Shown: positions 5,635 through 20,703 of the stretch, piece after piece
Layout of the letters: each line of letters starts with the position of its first letter
How positions within the stretch are numbered: position 1 is the stretch's first letter
IMG/VR virus record: IMGVR_UViG_3300025274_000088
Location: 1 to 20,703 of that record
Source: a virus
Strand: one strand, 5' to 3'
DNA length: 20,703 nt
Notes under the pieces: model-generated
The model's database searches: none
The model's input: only the letters and a program-made list of their open reading frames with translations
What the model was told of the DNA's origin: nothing
Translations under genes and position numbers: made by a program

Positions 5635-6036
5635 TTAATTCTCTGACGGGTCCCTTGGGACCAGTAATTCATCGGGAATGAGTTGATCCATCCTCTGTTG
5701 TGGGATTTCTATGTGCAGCGAAGGCAGTGCTTCGTTCATCACATCGCGGGTCGAATGAAACAGCCGCCCCCCGTTAAGGCGGCGGTAGACGTAGAAGGTC
5801 GTTTTCCAGACGCCGATTCTGACAATCCTTGCGGGGCTGCCCTCTAATATTACAATTTCATCGACGACGTAGGTGCCGCTGCGCAGTACCATAATCGAGG
5901 TGACGAACGACTTGATCGTCTCCTTAAAAACGATTATCCCGACAAAAAGGCAGACCAGCCACCAAAATTCGCCGAGAATCACCATCACCTCCTCGGCCAG
6001 CGGGGAGGTGATTTTATCGGCTATTTGCTCTTCCAT
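5635..6036 (-). CDS. Small membrane protein with MscS-like beta segment
   Basis: A 133-residue protein with one clear membrane span at about residues 17-37 (VMVILGEFWWLVCLFVGIIVF). It is followed by SGTYVVDEIVILEG and ARIVRIGVWKTTFYV, which resemble the pore-proximal beta domain of MscS mechanosensitive channels, where a 'G D x V x I x G' strand and a 'V x x I x x x x T x' strand are typical. It then reads RLFHST and IPQQRMDQLIPD. Full MscS subunits have three or more spans and about 280 residues, so this is at most a minimal or truncated version. It lies between portal and MuF genes, 31 bases after the portal stop and 3 bases before the MuF start. No clear ribosome site precedes the ATG. It could be a membrane partner of the ejected head proteins, a superinfection factor or a lysis-related protein; the homology is by eye only. 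Confidence 0.75.
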   Translation of the reverse strand: MEEQIADKITSPLAEEVMVILGEFWWLVCLFVGIIVFKETIKSFVTSIMVLRSGTYVVDEIVILEGSPARIVRIGVWKTTFYVYRRLNGGRLFHSTRDVMNEALPSLHIEIPQQRMDQLIPDELLVPRDPSEN

Positions 6037-6067
6037 GTTACAAAGGCGTTAGGGGGGCCGGCTGGAT

Positions 6068-7519
6068 TTACGCAGCTACCACCTGTTCGGCGAGGCCCTC
6101 GGCCTTCTGTTCCTCCGCTTCGTCCGCAGGGCGACCCTGAGCGAAATGGTTAACGACGGCCTTGTTGCCGTCGTTGTCTATCTCGCCGCTTTCCTCCTCA
6201 GCGTCCACGGCAGGCCGCGTGAGTTCAAGCTGTTCCAGGTTGTAATAGTAGGTCTCGAAACTCATTAAACCAGCCTGGACGGCAGCTGTGAGGGCCTGTA
6301 GCTCTTGCGGCGTTGCCTTGACGGCCAGAAGGTCGCGGTTGAGCTCAACCAAGACATCCCCCGACTGACCGGCCCACATTGTCGCGAATTCAAGGGCCGC
6401 GGTGAATGTAGCGTCCACCACTGCGGCCATCGACATGAGGGAAGCGGTCTCACCCGCATGGCGAAGGCGCACAGTCTCGGCGGTTTCGGCGGTCTTTTTC
6501 TGCTCCTCAAGGAGGCGGGAGCCGAACACCGCACAGTCGCTTTTTTTGCCGTCTATGTGCTCTGAGAGCCCCTTGAGGCCCTGCCCAGAGAATTCGAGCA
6601 TATCAGCCTTCGCGTCGGTCTTATCGCTCACCCAGGCCGTGTTAGAGCCAATGCGCAGGCTCGTCCCGACAGGGAACCCAGCCACCCACGGGGTCGGGAT
6701 GCCGACATAGTGAAAGCCGTTTTCAAGGTCGGCGCTATTGCGCCACATCGAGAGGCATAAGTCGGCCACCTCCATGAGCGGCGGCTTGTCGACATCAGGA
6801 GTCATATCCCCGCTGTTTCCAAACCAGAACGGGATTGAGTCGAACGGCTTGCCCCGAGTATCGGGCGTGATCACGTCATGGATTTCCCAATCTCCGTCCT
6901 TGTCATCAGCGGCCCGCCGATACAGGGTATGGGTAAAGACGCCTTCGGCAATCGCAAGAACGCGGTATTGCTCAACCTCGTTCAGAATGAATTCGTCCTC
7001 TAGGTCATCCTCTTCGACCACTTCGCGCAGAACGACGCGGTCGAGAACCTGGGCCCCACCCTGTGAAGTGGTGCGCCACGAAACCACATTTTCCGCGGCC
7101 GTAAGCACGAGGTAGGGCCGCTGCTCCTGCCCGTCTTTCTTTACGCCCATGTCGACGAACAGCCCATAACGGCCCACCTCCAGCAGTTCGTCAAAGGCGT
7201 CAGCAAGGAGGCCCTCAAGCCCGATGCCGGTCAGCGTCACATCTTCAAGCCAATCTTCAATAGCGGCGGGAACCTCGATCTTGGGCGGCTTTCTGAAGAC
7301 AGACCCCCGGTGGCCCTGTATGGACCGAGGCAGGGCGCCGTAAAAGTCCGCCCGCTTGAGATAGGCTTTGTATTCAGTGTCATCCTGCCCGCTCAACATC
7401 GGCAGGTATGTCCCTTTCTGCTCTCGCACAGCATCGAGGCCGATTGCTGCATCGCGGCAGCGTTGCCAGCGTTCGGCCATCGCGGCGTGTTGACTATGCG
7501 GTGTGTCTACCTTCGGCAT
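6068..7519 (-). CDS. Phage portal protein, DUF4055 type
   Basis: A protein of 483 residues. The dodecameric portal forms the DNA gate at the capsid vertex and docks the terminase. The N-terminal region (LPMLSGQDDTEYKAYLKRA, FYGALPRSIQGHRGSVFRKPP) and the overall pattern match my recollection of the DUF4055 family, which substitutes for classical portals in many phages beside terminase and MuF genes. Length fits. The start is placed at the ATG 7517-7519 because AGGAG precedes it on the minus strand by 6 bases and it lies one base after the terminase stop. A longer reading from a TTG at 7562-7564 would overlap terminase and lacks such a site. The C-terminus is acidic and Gln/Glu-rich (DEAEEQKAEG). 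Position directly downstream of TerL and upstream of MuF supports the call. Confidence 0.85.
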   Translation of the reverse strand: MPKVDTPHSQHAAMAERWQRCRDAAIGLDAVREQKGTYLPMLSGQDDTEYKAYLKRADFYGALPRSIQGHRGSVFRKPPKIEVPAAIEDWLEDVTLTGIGLEGLLADAFDELLEVGRYGLFVDMGVKKDGQEQRPYLVLTAAENVVSWRTTSQGGAQVLDRVVLREVVEEDDLEDEFILNEVEQYRVLAIAEGVFTHTLYRRAADDKDGDWEIHDVITPDTRGKPFDSIPFWFGNSGDMTPDVDKPPLMEVADLCLSMWRNSADLENGFHYVGIPTPWVAGFPVGTSLRIGSNTAWVSDKTDAKADMLEFSGQGLKGLSEHIDGKKSDCAVFGSRLLEEQKKTAETAETVRLRHAGETASLMSMAAVVDATFTAALEFATMWAGQSGDVLVELNRDLLAVKATPQELQALTAAVQAGLMSFETYYYNLEQLELTRPAVDAEEESGEIDNDGNKAVVNHFAQGRPADEAEEQKAEGLAEQVVAA

Positions 7520-9926: not shown

Positions 9927-10046
9927 ATGACTTCACCCAGGCACACTGGAGGCCACCGCATCGCGTGGTGGCTCACTATCGTCGGCACCGCTTACCTACT
10001 GGTGCGGATTCTGCCGGCGCTCATTTCAGGAGGAGGAACGCCATGA
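9927..10046 (+). CDS. 39-residue single-span membrane peptide
   Basis: The ATG at 9927 is preceded by GGAGGG with a 6-base gap, a strong start. The product has a short basic N-terminus (SPRHTGGHR) and one hydrophobic span, IAWWLTIVGTAYLLVRILPA, ending SGGGTP. Its TGA overlaps the ATG of the RecT-like gene (ATGA), so the two are coupled. The frame is open upstream to a GTG near 9864, but that start is poorly supported. Function unknown; one-span leader peptides at the head of phage early operons include host-takeover and superinfection-exclusion proteins, but nothing here proves that. Confidence 0.65.
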   Translation: MTSPRHTGGHRIAWWLTIVGTAYLLVRILPALISGGGTP

Positions 10047-10987
10047 CAAAAACCGACCCTACCACCGCAGCCCTTGATTCTGCTGGGGCTGGAGATTTCC
10101 ATGCCGGGATGAGCCTGGGGGCATTGGCCCGCGTAATAAGCGCGTCTGGTTGTTTCGGAAAAACCAACCCCAACATCGCGGCCGTTAAGATTCTCGCCGG
10201 TCGTGACCTCGGTCTCGGTCCTGTCGAGGCCATGAGAGGCTTGCACCTGTTTGACGGCAAGATTGAGCTGGGGTCAGGGGTAATGTCTTCCAAAATCAAG
10301 GGCAGCGGCCGCTACGATTACGACATCGTCCAGCACGACAAGGACGGCTGCGTCATCGAGTGTTGGGAAATGAACCTACGCACCGACGAATGGCAGCAAC
10401 GGCCAAATATCTCATTCACCAGGGTCGAAGCCGAAAAGGCCGGGTTGCTTAAAAAGCCGGTCTGGTCGCAATACTTCGACGATATGACATTCAGTCGTTG
10501 CATGTCCCGATTTTTCCGCCGCTACTGCCCACACCTGGCAGGGGGTGCGGTCTACGGGGACGGAGAAATCAGCGACCCGGCAGACGGCCCACCCCAAAAT
10601 GGGGGGCCACGAGGTGGAAAGCATGAACCGGCACCTATAGCACCCAAGGCAATCCCAGAGGACAGCCCTGAGGACAGCCCTGCGGCCATGATTGACCGTG
10701 TTATGGCCGAAAGCCCACCGGCGGGTGAAGAACCGGCCGTAACAAGCCCGACCCAGGAGCATCCCTATGGGCAATTTTGCCGGGAGGCAGGCGAGCTTAA
10801 GGAAAAACTGATCGCCCATGCTGACGGCGAGGCGGCTTACCGGAAGGTCTTCCAAGAAAACGGCCGCAAAGGACGTGCTGATGTTCCAAAGGGCGCGACC
10901 ATACTCCAGCGTGAGATTGTGCAAGGGTTACAGCTGGCACTAAAGCAGGCTGAGGCATTTGGTCCCCTCTCTCTTTCTCAAAGTTAA
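10043..10987 (+). CDS. RecT-like single-strand annealing protein
   Basis: A 314-residue protein. Residues about 20-175 carry the pattern I associate with phage RecT-type annealing proteins: NIAAVKILAGRDLGLGPVEA, MRGLHLFDGKIELGSGVM, a CVIECWEM strand, SFTRVEAEKAGLLKKPVWSQ and DDMTFSRCMSRFFRRYCPHL. Such proteins coat and anneal complementary strands in recombination-dependent replication. The middle is a Pro/Gly-rich linker with a perfect 12-base tandem repeat. The C-terminal segment (GQFCREAGELKEKLIAHADG) resembles the short helical tails of phage recombination proteins. ATG 10043 is preceded by AGGAGGAGG and coupled to the membrane peptide. No partner exonuclease was recognised in the window, which is unusual for a RecT system. 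Family assignment is by pattern only. Confidence 0.65.
   Translation: MTKTDPTTAALDSAGAGDFHAGMSLGALARVISASGCFGKTNPNIAAVKILAGRDLGLGPVEAMRGLHLFDGKIELGSGVMSSKIKGSGRYDYDIVQHDKDGCVIECWEMNLRTDEWQQRPNISFTRVEAEKAGLLKKPVWSQYFDDMTFSRCMSRFFRRYCPHLAGGAVYGDGEISDPADGPPQNGGPRGGKHEPAPIAPKAIPEDSPEDSPAAMIDRVMAESPPAGEEPAVTSPTQEHPYGQFCREAGELKEKLIAHADGEAAYRKVFQENGRKGRADVPKGATILQREIVQGLQLALKQAEAFGPLSLSQS
10658..10681 (+). repeat. Perfect 12-base tandem repeat in the RecT-like gene
   Basis: GAGGACAGCCCT occurs twice in a row and encodes EDSPEDSP in the linker between the two halves of the protein. A recent slippage duplication in a flexible, tolerant region is the simplest reading. Confidence 0.8.
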
Positions 10988-12940: not shown

Positions 12941-13112
12941 AGCGAAACACATCCACGAAAAGCGGTTAACTCGCGAACGCCTCGTGCTGCTAACAAGGGT
13001 TTATCACTCAGCCAAATATGCCGCCGAGGCTATCGGGTCCACTACATCCACCGTTGAAAAAGCCGCGGCGCGGTATGGGCTGAAATTCAGACGGAAAGGG
13101 AGCTTTCTATGA
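12930..13112 (+). CDS. Small 60-residue HTH-like protein
   Basis: The ATG at 12930 overlaps the previous gene's stop by 11 bases; AGAGG lies upstream. The product is very basic with a helix-turn-helix-like arrangement: RLTRERLVLLTRVYHSAKYA, then AAEAIGSTTSTVEKAAARYG and the basic tail LKFRRKGSFL. This resembles small phage DNA-binding proteins that recognise DNA with a single HTH. Its TGA overlaps the ATG of the PP-loop gene (ATGA). The frame is open further upstream to about 12777, but that is antisense-free overlap with the Cys4 gene and lacks a start site, so the short form is preferred. Confidence 0.65.
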   Translation: MSFKAKHIHEKRLTRERLVLLTRVYHSAKYAAEAIGSTTSTVEKAAARYGLKFRRKGSFL

Positions 13113-13954
13113 CGACGAAATATGACCTTAATGTCGTCAGCTTAGGTGCTGGGGTGCAATCCATGGCCGTGCTCCTATTAGCTGAAGCGGGGGAAATCAA
13201 ACCCCGCCCTGACTGTGCTATTTTTGCGGACACCGGATGGGAACCCCAGGCTGTTTATGACCAGCTGGCATGGCTGAAAGATGAAACGGCTATTCCTATC
13301 CATATCGTAACAGCAGGAAATATTAAAACCGATATTTTAAACGCCTTGGGCCCGCCTGGTCACAAACCCGAGGGCAAGTTTGCACAGCCCCCTTTTTATG
13401 TAAAGAACAGCAACGGGGATGAAACCGACCTTGGGGGAATGCTGTGGCGGCAATGCACCAAAGAATACAAAATCGAACCCATCACAAAAAAGATTCGGCT
13501 ATTGCTTGGATATAAGCCGCGAATGCGTGTCAAAAAAAGAGTGCAGGAATGGTTTGGGATTTCCATTGATGAAGCCCACCGCATGCGTGATTCACGCGTC
13601 CACTGGATCGACAACTATTATCCATTGATTGACCTTGAAATGCGCCGTGCTGACTGCCTCAGTTGGATGAAAAAGAAGGGGTATCCAGAACCACGGAAGT
13701 CTGCCTGCATTGGATGCCCCTATCACAGCAATGGAACGTGGGCAAAAATGCGGCGGGATTATCCTGATGAATTTGAGGAAGCCGTCGCATTCGACACCCA
13801 GCTCCGAGCGGGGGGTAAAATCCCCGGCGTTGCTGGGGATGCCTATTTACACAGAAGCATTGTTCCATTAGCTGAAGCAGTTGATAACACCCACGACCCA
13901 GACCAGATTGAAATGGATTTCGGGCAGGAATGCGAAGGAATGTGCGGGGTATGA
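13109..13954 (+). CDS. PP-loop ATPase, PAPS-reductase-like (adenine nucleotide alpha hydrolase)
   Basis: A 281-residue protein of the ATP-pyrophosphatase superfamily, often annotated as phosphoadenosine phosphosulfate reductase in phages but probably not doing sulfate reduction. The PP-loop is SLGAGVQSM (11-19), with FADTGWEPQAVY after it. Further conserved stretches are GGMLWRQCTKEYKI (Cys116), GISIDEAHRM, DCLSWMKKKGYPEP (Cys183), SACIGCPYH (Cys200, Cys203) and a C-terminal ECEGMCGV (Cys275, Cys279). The CxxC and terminal cysteines suggest a metal or Fe-S site as in thiolation or DndC-like enzymes. The length and motif order match a widespread phage family whose substrate, to my knowledge, is not established. 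It lies two genes before a SET protein and four before a DNA methyltransferase, so a role in nucleic-acid modification is a reasonable guess. Confidence 0.85.
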   Translation: MTTKYDLNVVSLGAGVQSMAVLLLAEAGEIKPRPDCAIFADTGWEPQAVYDQLAWLKDETAIPIHIVTAGNIKTDILNALGPPGHKPEGKFAQPPFYVKNSNGDETDLGGMLWRQCTKEYKIEPITKKIRLLLGYKPRMRVKKRVQEWFGISIDEAHRMRDSRVHWIDNYYPLIDLEMRRADCLSWMKKKGYPEPRKSACIGCPYHSNGTWAKMRRDYPDEFEEAVAFDTQLRAGGKIPGVAGDAYLHRSIVPLAEAVDNTHDPDQIEMDFGQECEGMCGV

Positions 13955-14142
13955 AGATTTCAATGAAGTCACATCGGTTATCACCAAACATCACCAGCTG
14001 GCCGGCTGTATGGCGCGAACGATATGAAGAGCGGGCGGCAATTTTAGAGTTTGACGGTGGATATGATCGCGGCGAAGCAGAAGCCCGCGCCAAATACCAG
14101 GTCGAAACAGCCTATGCCGCAGGTGAGGACCCTGCAAAATGA
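13951..14142 (+). CDS. Small 63-residue phage protein
   Basis: The start is the ATG at 13951, which overlaps the PP-loop gene's TGA (ATGA); an in-frame ATG at 13930 would overlap by 25 bases. The product has SWPAVWRERYEERAAILEFD and GGYDRGEAEARAKYQV. The 'E R A A I x E x D G G x x R x E A E' pattern is a frequent short helical motif in small phage proteins near replication genes; I know of no assigned function. Its stop overlaps the next start (ATGA). Confidence 0.75.
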   Translation: MKISMKSHRLSPNITSWPAVWRERYEERAAILEFDGGYDRGEAEARAKYQVETAYAAGEDPAK

Positions 14143-14513
14143 CCACTTATGCTCCACTTCATGCAGGGTTGACGATTCGCGAGTCCTCCATTCATGGCCT
14201 GGGGGTCTTCACCCTTGTCGACCTTCCTGCCGCGGAGATTTTAGGTATTAGCCACGTCTGCGACCGAACAAACGGACGGTATCACCAGGACTATATCAGA
14301 ACCCCTATCGGGGGCATGATTAACCACTCAGACGCGCCTAACTGCCGCAAAATCTCCGTTCAGCCGGGGGCAACTTGGACCCAGGAGATATTCGGAACGC
14401 TCCCTGAAGGCGCCATATCTGACACGATGGCGATTGAAACCACCCGCCAGATTCTGGCAGGGGAAGAGCTTACGGTCACGTATACGATTTACAGACTGGA
14501 GGACGACGAATGA
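14139..14513 (+). CDS. SET-domain protein, putative lysine methyltransferase
   Basis: A compact 124-residue SET domain. SET enzymes transfer a methyl group from S-adenosylmethionine to protein lysines. Motifs in order: LTIRESSIHGLGVF (11-24, with the GxGVF turn), GGMINHSDAPNC (58-69, the NHS pocket for the cofactor) and ILAGEELTVTY (105-115, the GEELxxxY motif with catalytic-type Tyr115). No pre-SET, post-SET or targeting domain is present, so it is a minimal enzyme. It is translationally coupled by ATGA overlaps to the genes on both sides. The target could be a host ribosomal or nucleoid protein or a phage protein; none is visible. All core motifs are intact. Confidence 0.85.
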   Translation: MTTYAPLHAGLTIRESSIHGLGVFTLVDLPAAEILGISHVCDRTNGRYHQDYIRTPIGGMINHSDAPNCRKISVQPGATWTQEIFGTLPEGAISDTMAIETTRQILAGEELTVTYTIYRLEDDE

Positions 14514-14965
14514 AGCGGCTTTATATTGATCGCATCGACGAGAGCGCCTCGGCGACTATCTCAAAACTCTGGTCACCGGATGCCGATTTTAAACTGTTTG
14601 GGCTTGAGCGGGCGTGGCGTTTAAACAAGGCAAACAGCAGCTGTTTCCCCGAGGGGATTTATACGCTCGTTGAGTGGGAATCCCCCAACTGGGGCACCGT
14701 CTGGGCCTTCGTTGGCGGGACAGTTAGCCCCATTCGTGGGGATGTTCCCAAGCTGGGGGCCAGATGGGGCTGCTTAATACACCCGGCAAACTACTTCCAC
14801 CAGATCGAAGGGTGCCTTGCCCCTGGTATGCGCCGCGGGCTCAAAGACGGGGAGCTATGTGTCTGGTCCTCCCGAGACGCTCTTAAAGTGCTACAGGAGG
14901 CCCTCGGGCCAGCGCCCCATATTGCCTACGTTCGCCGCGCCCTGGGGGTCAGCGAGGAGGATTGA
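14510..14965 (+). CDS. DUF5675 family protein
   Basis: A 151-residue protein matching DUF5675 as I recall it: FGLERAWRLNKANSSCFPEG (29-48, cf. 'LERPWxxNxxxxSCIPxGxY'), then YTLVEWESP, WGCLIHPANYFHQIEGC (86-102) with the 'HxxN...xxGC' signature. Two cysteines (45 and 102) and a histidine are placed as in the family. Biochemical role unknown; phage copies often occur near lysis or structural genes. Here it sits between a SET protein and a DNA methyltransferase, coupled by ATGA upstream and followed after 2 bases by the next start. GGAGG precedes the ATG. Confidence 0.85.
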   Translation: MKRLYIDRIDESASATISKLWSPDADFKLFGLERAWRLNKANSSCFPEGIYTLVEWESPNWGTVWAFVGGTVSPIRGDVPKLGARWGCLIHPANYFHQIEGCLAPGMRRGLKDGELCVWSSRDALKVLQEALGPAPHIAYVRRALGVSEED

Positions 14966-14967
14966 AG

Positions 14968-16080
14968 ATGAAATTTGGATCTGTGTGTTCAGGCATTGAA
15001 GCCGCCTCGGCTGCATGGAAGCCCTTGGGCTGGGAAGGGTCGTGGTTCGCTGAAATTGAACCCTTTCCGTGTTCCTTGCTGGCCCAGCATTATCCAACCG
15101 TCCCCAACCTTGGGGACATCACAGAGGAGAGTTTTATTGAACGCGCCCGAGCAGCTGGACCTATTGACGTCCTTATTGGAGGCACCCCCTGCCAGAGCTT
15201 CTCAATCGCCGGACTCCGAGGCGGCCTTGGCGATGTCCGCGGCAACTTGGCGCTCCGGTTTATGCAACTGGTGGATGAACTTTGTCCAACCTTCGTCGTC
15301 TGGGAAAACGTCCCCGGAGTACTGTCAAGCAACGACGGAAGGGACTTTGGTTCCATACTCGGGAGTTTGGTCGAATGCGGGTATGGGTGGGCCTATAGAG
15401 TCTTGGACGCTCAGTACTTCGGAGTGGCCCAAAGGCGGCGCCGCGTGTTCGTTGTCGGAAGCCTTGGAAACAACTGGGCCGCTGCCGCAGAAATACTTTC
15501 TATCCGAGAAAGCCTGCAAGGGCATCCTGCGCCGAGCCGCGAAACGGGGGAAGGACTTACCGGCCCGCTTGAACAAGGCCCTGAGGGCAGTGGCGGGCCC
15601 ATACCATCACAGGGTGCAAACAATGGGGGCGGTGAAGGGGCTCTGTTCGGTTTTTATTCCAGTGTAGGGACGCAGGAAATGAATGGAATAAGAGAAGGGG
15701 GCCCCATGCCCCCCTTAAAGGCTTCCGCCGTTGCTGCCGCGGCTGGATTTCTTCCAGACCAGGGAAGCAAGGCAGAAGGAATGGGTTATGAGAAAGAGGT
15801 CTCCCCGACCCTACGGCAATCCAAAACCCCTGGGGTTGAGCAGAACATGGCCGTAAGGCGCCTCACCCCCAGAGAATGTGAACGACTGCAAGGATTCCCG
15901 GACGACTATACGCAGGTTCACCACCGCGGCAAGCCCGCCAGTGATGGGCCCCGCTACCGGGCACTGGGCAATTCAATGGCCGTGCCGGTGGTGCAGTGGA
16001 TCGGCCGGGGAATTGAGCGAATTAGAGCTCTGTGCGATTCAGTGCGTCCACCCACGCCTGGGCGAGCATATAGGCGATAA
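14968..16080 (+). CDS. DNA (cytosine-5) methyltransferase
   Basis: A 370-residue m5C methyltransferase with motifs in order: I FGSVCSGIEAAS (cofactor loop), IV GGTPCQSFSIAG with catalytic Cys75, VI ENVPG (113-117), VIII QRRRRVFVVG (155-164), a variable Gly/Pro-rich target-recognition region (about 170-290), IX RRLTPRECERLQGFPDDY (297-314) and X ALGNSMAVPVV (332-342). It methylates cytosine in a specific short site, probably protecting phage DNA from host restriction. The ATG at 14968 is preceded by AGGAGG with a 7-base gap; a TTG two codons upstream (14962) is less likely. No restriction endonuclease gene adjoins, so it acts as an orphan enzyme. The last 59 bases overlap an opposing small gene. 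Confidence 0.95.
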   Translation: MKFGSVCSGIEAASAAWKPLGWEGSWFAEIEPFPCSLLAQHYPTVPNLGDITEESFIERARAAGPIDVLIGGTPCQSFSIAGLRGGLGDVRGNLALRFMQLVDELCPTFVVWENVPGVLSSNDGRDFGSILGSLVECGYGWAYRVLDAQYFGVAQRRRRVFVVGSLGNNWAAAAEILSIRESLQGHPAPSRETGEGLTGPLEQGPEGSGGPIPSQGANNGGGEGALFGFYSSVGTQEMNGIREGGPMPPLKASAVAAAAGFLPDQGSKAEGMGYEKEVSPTLRQSKTPGVEQNMAVRRLTPRECERLQGFPDDYTQVHHRGKPASDGPRYRALGNSMAVPVVQWIGRGIERIRALCDSVRPPTPGRAYRR

Positions 16081-17048: not shown

Positions 17049-20000
17049 TTAAAACCGCTCCTCTAACATCGTGAAAGCGTCGCGCATCTGCGATGGTAAT
17101 TTGCTGCGTTGTTTATCGGTTAAGACCTTGGCAAGTTCGGCCATCCACTGGAAATTCTGAAACCCCATATCCCAACTGAACTTTATTGACTTCTGGACAT
17201 TCAAGAACCGATGCCCGGGGGTTCTTCCCTCTCCCGGCAGCTCTGCATGAGTGACAATCCCGGCGTCTTCCATGCGCTGCACCAGAGCGGGATTTGTTAT
17301 TTGCATTCCCCCAAGAATACCCCGGCCTTGCCGCAAAGCCATCTCGGTTGTATATGCACGGCCAGCGATAGCATCGGGAATATCGTCAAGCGCCGTGGCC
17401 CAACTAGTGTCGCTAGCATGAACAGTGCCGTCGCCTTTTATGATAACTCTGGTGGTTGGGATTGCGCCGCCATTGGAAACACTAAAAATATTTTCTCCGT
17501 CAGCGCAATCGCCCCAGCTTGTGCCTCCATCGGTTTTGATTCCGTTAACATTAACCACCCCAATGCCGCCAGTTGTGTCTGTAGTATTCGGCGCTTCAGC
17601 AAGCCCGCGCAGCGTCGTTGCGGCGTATTGCTTTGAGACTCCCAGCAACTCAGCCCCGCCATCCGAGGTGTGTTCCTTGATTCGAAAATACGTATCGTTG
17701 TCTGTTATGGTGGTGTGGCCATGGTTAACATCAGAGCGAAAGTGAACTGAGTTATCCGTTGCTAGAATTAGCTGGCCCCAATTTGTGCCGGTGCTGTGGC
17801 TTGTTTGGATCGAGAAATCTGTGTTTTCTAAATTTACCAGATTAGGTTCGCCAGTACCGTCCACTGTAAGAGCAAGGCCGTCATTTACCGTTGCCGCTGT
17901 CGCCGCGTTGGTGATTCGGAGAGTGCAATTTGTGGACGCGGCTTTGTGAATGTGAAGCTCCTCTACTGGCGCATCCGTGCCGATGCCGACGTTGCCTGAA
18001 TTGTCGATTGTAACTTTGTCTGTGCCATTGTTGCGTATGGTGAGAATGTCCGTCGCGATGTCAGTGTCGTCTGTTTCTCTTGCGTCAATCACGAGGCCGG
18101 CTGCGGTAGCAGCACCAGCGGGAACAACAGCCCTGATTTCTAGTCCGTCTCCAGAGTCAGCGAAGCGTTCGCCGATGAGCGCCCCTCCTCCTGCCGTGCC
18201 GCCACTAGAGCTGTAATTGCCTATCAGCCAAGCGTTTGTGTCACTGGGATTTTGTAACCTCAGAGTATTGCTGGTTACTGCGGATTTGATTTCAAGTGGA
18301 GCACCTGGACTCGACGTGCCGATGCCTACGTCGCCGGAGGAGTCGATTGTGAGTCTTGTGTTTGTTCCAATTGCCGTCGTCCCGATCTTAAACTTGTCGG
18401 AGTCGCCGTCGTCAACCCCCATCGTGAAGGTTTTCGTTCCAGACAAGGCGAAAGCAAGGACTGGATCGCCGTCCGCCTTCGCGTTGCTAATCTGGAAATA
18501 CGTAACATTGCCAGCATCTTCTATTTCTAAGAGTTCTCCGGGGCTCGTCGTCCCGATGCCGACGTTGCCGCTCCTGTCTATCATCATACGCACTGCCATC
18601 GCGGTATCGTGATTCTGCGGCGAAGTCAGGAATTCTATAAATCCTGAAGATGAATTTCCAGGCTGATTACCATGCCCCAGATGAATACCGGCCACCCTTG
18701 CACCCCCGCCATGCGTCAGCTGATTCGGATTGATACTGCTGGCGGAAAGTTCAAGCAGATTTGTTTGGGAATAGTCATTTGATGCGCTATTACCTCCCTG
18801 AAAAACCTGAGTTCCCGTGGTATTACTACCAACGGTTCCGCCACTCATATCAAGAGGATACTCAGGGCTCGCCGTGCCAATGCCGACGTTGCCGGAGGTG
18901 TCAATTGCCAACCTTGTCGTTGACCCGTCGAAGATCTCAAAATTATCACTGCGAGCCCCCACGGTCTGCAAGAGCCACGAAACCGCGTCGTTTGTAATCT
19001 TGATGTGGGGGTTGCTGTTTACGGTTGTTGCTTCTAAGTGGAGCAGCTCAGACGACGACGCCCCCTCCTTGACGTGCAAGTTGTGATCGGGGTCATCCGT
19101 GCCGATGCCGACGTTGCCGCTGGAGTTTAAGCGCATAACCTCGCTTATCCCCGCGGAGGCCCGCACATTAAAAACTAAATCAGCCAATCTCGATGTGGCA
19201 TTAGTCCACACGGCGTCGATACTGGCAGCGGCACGGTCCGCGCCTCCTGTATCCTCAATGTTGAAAGCCAAACCAACACCGAGCCCATTAGCTGCCGTGC
19301 CAGACGTTTGCTTTCCAATGGTCAATGCGTTGAGAACCGTATTCGTCGCAGTCGATACATGAGTGTGCTGTACTGACGTATTGCCAGACGTGTGCAGGAT
19401 ACTACTAATCGGCGATATCCCGATGCCTACGTGGCCGCTGGCGTTGACGATGACATTCTGAACCCACGCCCCGGTCGAAAGATTCTGGATGGAGAAGTCG
19501 TTGTTTTCGTCCGCGACGACCTGCCACTTGTCCGCGTTGTCGTCGCCCTCGTCGGCGAAGAGCTTGAGGTATGCGCCCTTGGCCTCGCCGCCTGTGATCT
19601 GGACGACCGCGTTGTTGGCAGTGCCCTCGCGAGAAACCTCGAATAGCTCTGCGGGGCTCACCCCGATGCCGACGTTGCCGCTTTCATCGATGGTCATTCT
19701 GGTTACTGCTGGACTTGCTGCTGATGTTGCGCCTTTAGTTTTAAAGTGAAGCTTTCCTTGACTATTGCTCCCCGTTCTTTCATGCGTAATCGCAGCACCC
19801 GGCGTATAGGAATTATCCAAATCTCCACCTGTAGACCAAGCACTAAATCCTAAACCTATTTCCTCCCCATCAGACACTCCATTACCATGAAGCAACAGCG
19901 AATACTGATTAGCCGTTGCACTGTCCGTGGCATCTACGTCATCTGTTCGTATCGTAATTCCCGGTGAAATAGGGGCCCCCGTGCCGATGCCTACGTTGCC

Positions 20001-20703
20001 ACCGGTTTCTATGACCATTTTCGGCGAAGCAAAGCTGCTCGTCGGAGAAAATACAAACGCATTGCTCAGGCTGTAATCAACGCCAACAAACCAGTCCGCG
20101 TTTGTATTAAAGTGAATAGCAGCATCATAAGGGTCGTTAGGACCAAGGCGAAGCGTATTAGCCTCGCCTGACTTGGAAAGGTGGAGCAAGGCGTAGGGAC
20201 TCGACGTGCCGATGCCTACGTTGCCGGAACCGAGAACAGTGATAAGATTCGTACTTAAATTGTTGACCTGCAATACCGTCTCGGCATCTGCCAGCATCGC
20301 GACCCCCGTGCTCCCGTTCGACTTCCCTCCCCTGAGAAGGATTGCAGGAACAGTGTCGGTTGGATCGGTGACACCAATTAACCCAACCAGAGTCATACCA
20401 GAAATTCCAGCCGCGTCTGACGCGCCGTAGATCAAGCCCCCGCCATCAGCGGCGTTTGCGTCGCGCACGTAGAATAGCGCATCTGTTGGCAGCTCGTTAG
20501 TGATTCCGTGAGCCACTCCCGAGAATGAGATTGCGAAGCCATTGTTTGTGGTCATCTTCAGGTCGAGCAACTTCGACGGACTCGACGTGCCGATGCCGAC
20601 GTTGCCGTCGCCCCGAAGGACCAGCACATCGTTCACCTGAGTGCCTGAACCGCTTGAAATATCAAACGTGAGATTGTTGCTTGCGGCTGTCCCTGAGTAA
20701 GTC
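17049..20703 (-). CDS. Tail-fibre-like protein with NVGIGTSSP repeats, 5' end outside the window
   Basis: The frame is open to the right edge, so the gene begins beyond it; about 1217 residues are visible. An internal GTG near 20636 should not be taken as the start, since TYSGTAASNN-type fibre sequence precedes it. Ten copies of a motif like NVGIGTSSP (forms include NVGIGTDDP, HVGIGISP, DVGIGTSSP) divide the protein into beta-rich units with 'MxIDxSG' before each motif. Such repeats are common in phage tail fibres, tail spikes and some surface proteins. After the tenth motif about 320 residues follow, ending with DIPDAIAGRAYTTEMALRQG, KSIKFSWDMGFQNFQWMAEL and a basic helix. This C-terminus resembles ends I recall from marine-type fibres, not the S74 self-cleaving chaperone. 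Role: host contact, inferred. Confidence 0.85.
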   Translation of the reverse strand, partial: TYSGTAASNNLTFDISSGSGTQVNDVLVLRGDGNVGIGTSSPSKLLDLKMTTNNGFAISFSGVAHGITNELPTDALFYVRDANAADGGGLIYGASDAAGISGMTLVGLIGVTDPTDTVPAILLRGGKSNGSTGVAMLADAETVLQVNNLSTNLITVLGSGNVGIGTSSPYALLHLSKSGEANTLRLGPNDPYDAAIHFNTNADWFVGVDYSLSNAFVFSPTSSFASPKMVIETGGNVGIGTGAPISPGITIRTDDVDATDSATANQYSLLLHGNGVSDGEEIGLGFSAWSTGGDLDNSYTPGAAITHERTGSNSQGKLHFKTKGATSAASPAVTRMTIDESGNVGIGVSPAELFEVSREGTANNAVVQITGGEAKGAYLKLFADEGDDNADKWQVVADENNDFSIQNLSTGAWVQNVIVNASGHVGIGISPISSILHTSGNTSVQHTHVSTATNTVLNALTIGKQTSGTAANGLGVGLAFNIEDTGGADRAAASIDAVWTNATSRLADLVFNVRASAGISEVMRLNSSGNVGIGTDDPDHNLHVKEGASSSELLHLEATTVNSNPHIKITNDAVSWLLQTVGARSDNFEIFDGSTTRLAIDTSGNVGIGTASPEYPLDMSGGTVGSNTTGTQVFQGGNSASNDYSQTNLLELSASSINPNQLTHGGGARVAGIHLGHGNQPGNSSSGFIEFLTSPQNHDTAMAVRMMIDRSGNVGIGTTSPGELLEIEDAGNVTYFQISNAKADGDPVLAFALSGTKTFTMGVDDGDSDKFKIGTTAIGTNTRLTIDSSGDVGIGTSSPGAPLEIKSAVTSNTLRLQNPSDTNAWLIGNYSSSGGTAGGGALIGERFADSGDGLEIRAVVPAGAATAAGLVIDARETDDTDIATDILTIRNNGTDKVTIDNSGNVGIGTDAPVEELHIHKAASTNCTLRITNAATAATVNDGLALTVDGTGEPNLVNLENTDFSIQTSHSTGTNWGQLILATDNSVHFRSDVNHGHTTITDNDTYFRIKEHTSDGGAELLGVSKQYAATTLRGLAEAPNTTDTTGGIGVVNVNGIKTDGGTSWGDCADGENIFSVSNGGAIPTTRVIIKGDGTVHASDTSWATALDDIPDAIAGRAYTTEMALRQGRGILGGMQITNPALVQRMEDAGIVTHAELPGEGRTPGHRFLNVQKSIKFSWDMGFQNFQWMAELAKVLTDKQRSKLPSQMRDAFTMLEERF
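17980..20610 (-). repeat. Ten DNA repeats coding the NVGIGTSSP motif
   Basis: A block read on the plus strand as a variant of GATGCCGACGTTGCC recurs at 17982, 18321, 18555, 18879, 19104, 19422, 19665, 19986, 20211 and 20592 (first base of GATGCC or AATGCC). Third-base changes (gcctac versus gccgac) and one GTGG variant show drift. Spacings are 339, 234, 324, 225, 318, 243, 321, 225 and 381 bases, all multiples of three and alternating long and short. Confidence 0.9.

Follow-up and report, generated by a model that had tools for sequence, protein, structure and literature searches.

How could a SET-domain protein of only 124 residues serve a phage, and what would such a protein methylate? SET enzymes are usually viewed as chromatin-modifying proteins of eukaryotes or as effectors with which bacteria target chromatin. 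The window studied here is the whole 20,703-base stretch of an IMG/VR virus record and contains portal, terminase, tail-fibre, and RecT-like genes. Its leftward genes encode a small and a large terminase, a portal protein, and a 1700-aa protein. Between leftward blocks, a rightward run carries the RecT-like gene, a PAPS-reductase-like gene, a 70-aa ORF, the SET gene, a DUF5675 gene, and a C5 DNA methyltransferase gene. The features to which we refer below are the following:

9965–10987, plus strand: RecT-like annealing protein, close to where the rightward run starts (phrog_561, E 7.7e-7)
13109–13954, plus strand: PAPS-reductase-like protein, in the same run as the SET gene (phrog_424, E 9.8e-50)
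13930–14142, plus strand: 70-aa ORF directly upstream of the SET gene (weak PHROG match, E 0.0017)
14139–14513, plus strand: compact SET-domain protein P0001 (ORF with ATG start, 124 aa)
14196–14210, plus strand: GLGVF, residues 20–24, N-terminal SAM-side SET motif (G20 and G22 invariant in alignment A2)
14241–14255, plus strand: LGISH, residues 35–39, family-specific LGx[ST]H strand (conservation of H39)
14298–14345, plus strand: RTPIGGMINHSDAPNC, residues 54–69, family signature and SET NHS motif (conservation counts)
14358–14420, plus strand: insertion of about 20 residues (about 74–94) after PNC (alignment A1; low model confidence there)
14460–14483, plus strand: GEELTVTY, residues 108–115, with the SET tyrosine Y115 (conservation of Y115)
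14510–14965, plus strand: DUF5675 protein directly downstream of the SET gene (Pfam PF18925, E 3.5e-17)
14962–16080, plus strand: C5-cytosine DNA methyltransferase (Pfam PF00145, E 1.9e-52), with TTG at 14962 as the listed start and an ATG at 14969
17049–20636, leftward: tail-fibre protein of 1195 aa, at the right end of the window

A sequence-only reading of this DNA had placed an ORF of 124 residues at 14139–14513, with GxGVF, NHSxxPNC, and GEELxxxY motifs. The ORF list and the translation agree with this, and all three motifs are present (G20-L-G22-V-F24, N62-H-S-D-A-P-N68-C69, and G108-E-E-L-T-V-T-Y115). P0001 matches the Pfam SET model PF00856 with 35.8 bits (E 1.2e-8; cut-off 22.4 bits) and PHROG 28741, for which no function is annotated, with an E-value of 1.2e-15; no match was obtained for it in NCBIfam. 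In the same collection, 49 of 66 family members match AnkI/LegAS4, a model for a Legionella effector (best E 2.5e-6); we take these matches as general SET similarity. The tight coupling to neighbouring genes that had been claimed is visible as an ATGA overlap on each side: positions 14139–14142 are common to the SET start and the upstream ORF (13930–14142), and positions 14510–14513 to the SET stop and the downstream ORF (14510–14965). Three viral contigs (L001, L002, and L003) encode a SET protein 100% identical to P0001 with the same neighbours. L003 matches the window at each of the 7465 bases compared; L002 shows 31 differences over 9887 bases and L001 shows 200 over 7748, all of them located after 15500.

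The RecT-like gene and the divergent layout suggest that the rightward run containing the SET gene may be an early or replication-phase unit. The PAPS-reductase-like protein of this run has relatives in 48 phage records and is 41–46% identical to proteins from phages with very different hosts, among them Pelagibacter phage HTVC034P and the Geobacillus and Thermus P23-77 phages. The tail-fibre protein has relatives in cyanophages and pelagiphages, one of them annotated as a chaperone of endosialidase.

By its signature, P0001 is a member of a widespread compact SET family that also occurs in marine bacterial chromosomes. Family proteins are typically 95–120 aa long and share the signature LGx[ST]H...RTPLGGFxNHS; P0001 carries LGx[ST]H, RTPxGG, NHS, and GEELxxxY within the length range allowed for the family (about 95–150 aa). 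PHROG 28741 covers the family in part. A first scan with P0001 returned 18 viral loci, and a profile scan of viral contigs returned at least 581 relatives among 600 candidate stretches; genome contigs, scanned with the single pattern RTPLGGF[IYV]N, yielded 206 relatives among 208 candidates. The sequences retained for analysis comprised 80 of the at least 581 viral and 80 of the 206 genome relatives; the viral set held 100 loci (L001–L100; 82 distinct sequences) and the genome set 80 loci (77 distinct), the genome list and, in part, the viral list being biased to the signature by the scan pattern RTPLGGF[IYV]N. SET ORFs of the 180 loci span 91–148 aa, except for L018 at 307 aa (5839–6780), a viral protein whose SET part is N-terminal and precedes a further domain. 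Relatives with 34–49% identity to P0001 are widespread, and those in the isolated phages P-SSM7, P-RSM6, and Kolga EXVC016S and in the single-cell record AG-345-P14 are 34–38% identical over 94–96% of P0001 and hypothetical wherever annotated.

Conservation was counted over the distinct sequences. Residues G20, G22, R54, T55, P56, G58, N62, H63, and E110 are kept in 82 of 82 viral-side and 77 of 77 genome-side sequences, an invariance of signature residues that is partly due to search patterns containing the RTPLGG and GEE..Y stretches. G59 is kept in 81 of 82 and 77 of 77, respectively, and H39 in 79 of 82 and 77 of 77. Consistent loss of Tyr115 in homologues, which had been named as a result that would refute the earlier idea, was not observed: the residue is kept on the viral side in 82 of 82 and on the genome side in 76 of 77, the exception being one gap where the frame ends early. 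The SET gene is under purifying selection: viral pairs at 70–95% identity, in a set without L001–L003, L018, and L019, have a median dN/dS of 0.14 (95 usable of 100 pairs, dS being unusable in five). The insertion after PNC is missing from most phage relatives in alignment A1, and SAR11 copies have a longer insertion at the same site. Thus, a selected SET domain with catalytic motifs, coupled to phage genes, stands from the earlier interpretation. Its view that SET enzymes are less common in phages does not: rarity of the family in phages is rejected by the at least 581 viral stretches that encode a relative in one profile scan.

The surroundings of the gene vary among viruses. Contexts of the viral loci are unrelated: 10 of 100 loci have the SET gene between terminase and portal, and elsewhere it lies near baseplate genes, DNA polymerase, clamp loader, or ribonucleotide reductase. 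No constant phage partner gene that might be the target was found across the 100 viral loci, the neighbours being diverse. A tree of 86 rows and 114 columns, with many forks unresolved, groups eight SAR11 rows as one clade (100/99) and nine flavobacterial rows plus L108 as another (99/99); viral sequences surround both the SAR11 and the marine Flavobacteriaceae clades, and P0001 pairs with the viral sequence L026 (94/80). Cellular and viral sequences are intermixed, since the viral label needs 11 changes on the tree, which gives no root or direction of transfer because its backbone (65/75) is too weak. The simplest reading is that a phage SET gene was taken up by at least two bacterial lineages, and the gene itself is best read as a mobile accessory gene. 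Several genome contigs in metagenome-assembled genomes (MAGs) seem to be of phage origin, e.g., L144, which is almost the same as Kolga. In a Marinimicrobia-labelled MAG contig (L117, 7983–9683), the SET gene adjoins a cytochrome P450 gene; contigs labelled Acidimicrobiales and Microthrix encode almost the same SET protein, which points to mobile or phage DNA.

We modelled P0001 with AlphaFold2 from 66 sequences. Alignment A2 joins P0001 to 50 of 53 viral rows (without L071, L079, and L067; the 307-aa L018 is absent from the viral list) and to 15 of the 17 rows from genomes (without L108 and L117). The model is confident overall (pLDDT 85.9, pTM 0.78), less so in the insertion after PNC, and its predicted fold is that of a SET domain. 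The best 50 of 512 Foldseek matches are all SET methyltransferases, with PFL0690c (5.5e-7) and vSET (3.9e-6) at the top. All 50 matches listed by VIA-align 2 are SET proteins, with MLL3 (Z 10.9; 96 residues, rmsd 2.9) and vSET (Z 10.6; 93 residues, rmsd 2.6) tied, as rows up to 1 Z unit apart are so counted. A search of PDB with the A2 profile gave 182 distinct chain sequences at E ≤ 1, with MLL4 (8.7e-12) the best and vSET at 3.7e-9. Among viral models, the best structural match is to an uncultured virus whose SET protein is 971 aa long (BFVD A0A218ML49); SET fusions thus exist, and the domain fused to SET might give a clue to the substrate.

We consider it quite probable that P0001 is an active SAM-dependent methyltransferase. 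The mechanism that we propose is that of a minimal SET-domain (class V) enzyme from a phage accessory gene, in which the GxG loop and the NHS strand would bind SAM and a nucleophile next to Tyr115 would receive the methyl group. Less certainly, this nucleophile might be the lysine amine of a host or phage protein, methylated during infection, and the modification might make some common cellular machine work differently. Protein lysine, the substrate of most SET enzymes characterised so far, is the default target for P0001, with a small molecule as the serious and main rival. The many carrier phages and the lack of a constant neighbour suggest that the substrate comes from the cell rather than from the phage. 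Protein methylation in early infection, as had been proposed from the sequence, is possible. The full reading, in which the accessory gene of the phage encodes an active, minimal SET methyltransferase that targets protein lysine, is tentative, with the balance tipped slightly against it.

Several features weigh against the lysine part of this reading. Profile positions 10–98 span 102 residues in vSET and positions 10–100 span 118 in MLL3, and these longer spans at equal profile positions indicate that the compact family is without much of SET-I; between GxG and NHS, it does not have a SET-I of the usual lysine-methyltransferase length. SET-I holds the peptide in known SET enzymes. A post-SET-like segment is also absent after Tyr115 of P0001, which ends nine residues later. 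The F/Y-switch positions presumably lie nine residues after the NHS asparagine and two before the tyrosine (SET7/9 Y305-type, EZH2 F724-type). The residue at Asn62+9 is aromatic in only 2 of 82 viral-side and 1 of 77 genome-side sequences, and position 113 is chiefly L or V on the viral side and chiefly A on the genome side. The non-aromatic switch positions weaken the lysine reading and are not decisive, because vSET, a lysine methyltransferase, likewise departs from the textbook channel.

The reduced SET-I and the missing switch aromatics would suit a small-molecule methyltransferase resembling BurB and acting on an amino acid, a betaine precursor, or another small amine or thioether. We regard this alternative as less likely than the lysine reading but as the one to be taken most seriously; were it true, the phage copy could be an auxiliary metabolic gene or change the SAM/methionine pool during infection. 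Part of the support for it comes from the cellular copies. SAR11 contigs make up most of the 80 genome relatives retained from 206, among which an omega-aminotransferase cluster occurs in 53, alanine dehydrogenase in 55, and a dimethylglycine-dehydrogenase-like gene in 59. SAR11 chromosomal copies (L104, L122, and relatives) adjoin alanine dehydrogenase or sit in a methylated-amine cluster, and a second SAR11 setting brings together homocysteine S-methyltransferase, a dimethylglycine-dehydrogenase-like enzyme, a small methyltransferase, a glycine-betaine-type Rieske oxygenase, and a DddP-like enzyme. Such small-molecule operons count against a lysine target and for a small one. A small-molecule target is also favoured by two Bacteroidota MAG contigs in which the SET gene lies between argC and proC in a run of arginine genes. 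This setting is annotated in L110 (3679–5749; SET gene of 97 aa) and was recognised by matching gene clusters in L123 (open frame of 91 aa).

Other observations on cellular genomes speak against a small-molecule substrate. In a sampled SAR11 family set, the SET gene is present in 27 of 197 genomes and alanine dehydrogenase in 98 of 197. Comparison of these lists by hand gave 26 of 27 SET genomes that also encode alanine dehydrogenase, with the two genes adjacent in 21 of 27, and 72 of 98 alanine-dehydrogenase genomes without the SET gene. The alanine-dehydrogenase pathway therefore does not need SET, and the idea that SET is a required part of the SAR11 alanine-dehydrogenase operon was rejected. 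In the family of a Formosa MAG, the SET gene occurs in 20 of 397 genomes. Most flavobacterial copies are near thiolase, thioesterase, transporter, or endonuclease genes, which have no amino-acid link; an "amino-acid operon" rule for all cellular copies was rejected for most flavobacterial copies by these neighbours.

BurB of Burkholderia thailandensis provides the precedent for a small-molecule SET enzyme. This 172-aa crystallised protein methylates free methionine, with H93 and H138 touching the SAM adenine and R133 the ribose; activity is nearly abolished in Y124A and retained at >60% in Y124F (PMC12542666). One family member, L012, matches BurB (9l4t; 9l4v is the other methionine S-methyltransferase, or MSMT, structure) over residues 44–93 against 80–127 in a phmmer comparison (E 0.016). 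Judged by the end points of this match, the NHS histidine and SET tyrosine of L012, equivalent to P0001 H63 and Y115, would be in register with BurB H93 and Y124. R133 and H138, which lie 9 and 14 residues after Y124, have no counterpart in P0001, and the RTP of the family signature is absent, by hand reading, from the BurB stretch readable from printed primers (PMC12542666). The closest PDB profile matches to A2 are lysine methyltransferases, and BurB is outside the 60 best. It is also absent among the Foldseek and VIA matches listed, an absence that carries no evidential weight, and a fragment search for a BurB alignment gave no SET protein and 11 weak unrelated matches, mostly repeat proteins. 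The compact family may thus work like BurB without necessarily being of the BurB type. We are more doubtful still of the broader claim that the RTPLGG family is a widespread phage family of small-molecule, not protein, methyltransferases of amino-acid or methylated-amine metabolism that SAR11 and marine Flavobacteriaceae each adopted into their chromosomes, in SAR11 within amino-acid and methylamine operons; if true, the role of this large branch of SET enzymes would lie outside protein methylation.

It is improbable that P0001 has kept the SET fold without transferase activity, as a SAM- or protein-binding module such as an inhibitor of a host methyltransferase. Phages often reuse folds, and the very small size, the loss of much of SET-I, and the lack of a post-SET segment would fit such a module; however, Tyr115, NHS, and GxG are kept nearly without exception in phages and bacteria, which counts against it because a binding-only module would not need them. 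Almost no credence attaches to the idea that the ORF arose by chance, is decaying, or is a cellular gene that strayed into the assembly; this idea has the small size and nothing else in its favour and is refuted by the identical copies with the same neighbours in three viral contigs; the ATGA overlaps, the purifying selection among relatives (dN/dS 0.14), and the relatives in isolates also speak against it, in keeping with the sequence-only judgement that the gene is unlikely to be a stray insertion.

The preferred reading, a phage-borne minimal SET methyltransferase with protein lysine as its default target, concerns a compact SET branch that has conserved catalytic residues and abounds in phages whose prokaryotic hosts have no histone-based chromatin. 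If the substrate is a protein, its methylation would be a widespread phage-made mark on bacterial machinery; if it is a small molecule, such a role of SET would be widespread. SAR11 bacteria are among the most abundant in the sea, and their chromosomal copies give the family relevance to marine metabolism. In one open-access library of papers, we found no study of the compact RTPLGG family or of its SAR11 copies, nor, at the level of titles and abstract openings, any study devoted to a SET enzyme from a phage.

Databases, and at least one paper on a phage genome, already list viral and phage proteins as SET proteins. Caudovirales SET entries are present in BFVD, and a passage of the vB_SmaM_Ps15 genome paper names a SET domain in ORF62 without assigning it a role there (PMC9025141). 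These proteins resemble P0001 in having a SET domain but may lie outside the RTPLGG family. The copies in P-SSM7, P-RSM6, Kolga, and AG-345-P14 share the RTPLGG...NHS...Y core of P0001 but are about 100 aa long and without its insertion. The eukaryotic SET lysine methyltransferases of the MLL/KMT2 type and others have the SET core and its motifs in common with the family and are its best profile matches, although MLL/KMT2-type enzymes have full SET-I and post-SET parts and chromatin substrates. Like P0001, the histone H3K27 methyltransferase vSET (PBCV-1 A612L) is a minimal viral SET protein; in contrast, it is longer than the compact family between GxG and NHS, presumably lacks the RTPLGG signature, and belongs to a virus whose host is a eukaryote with histones.
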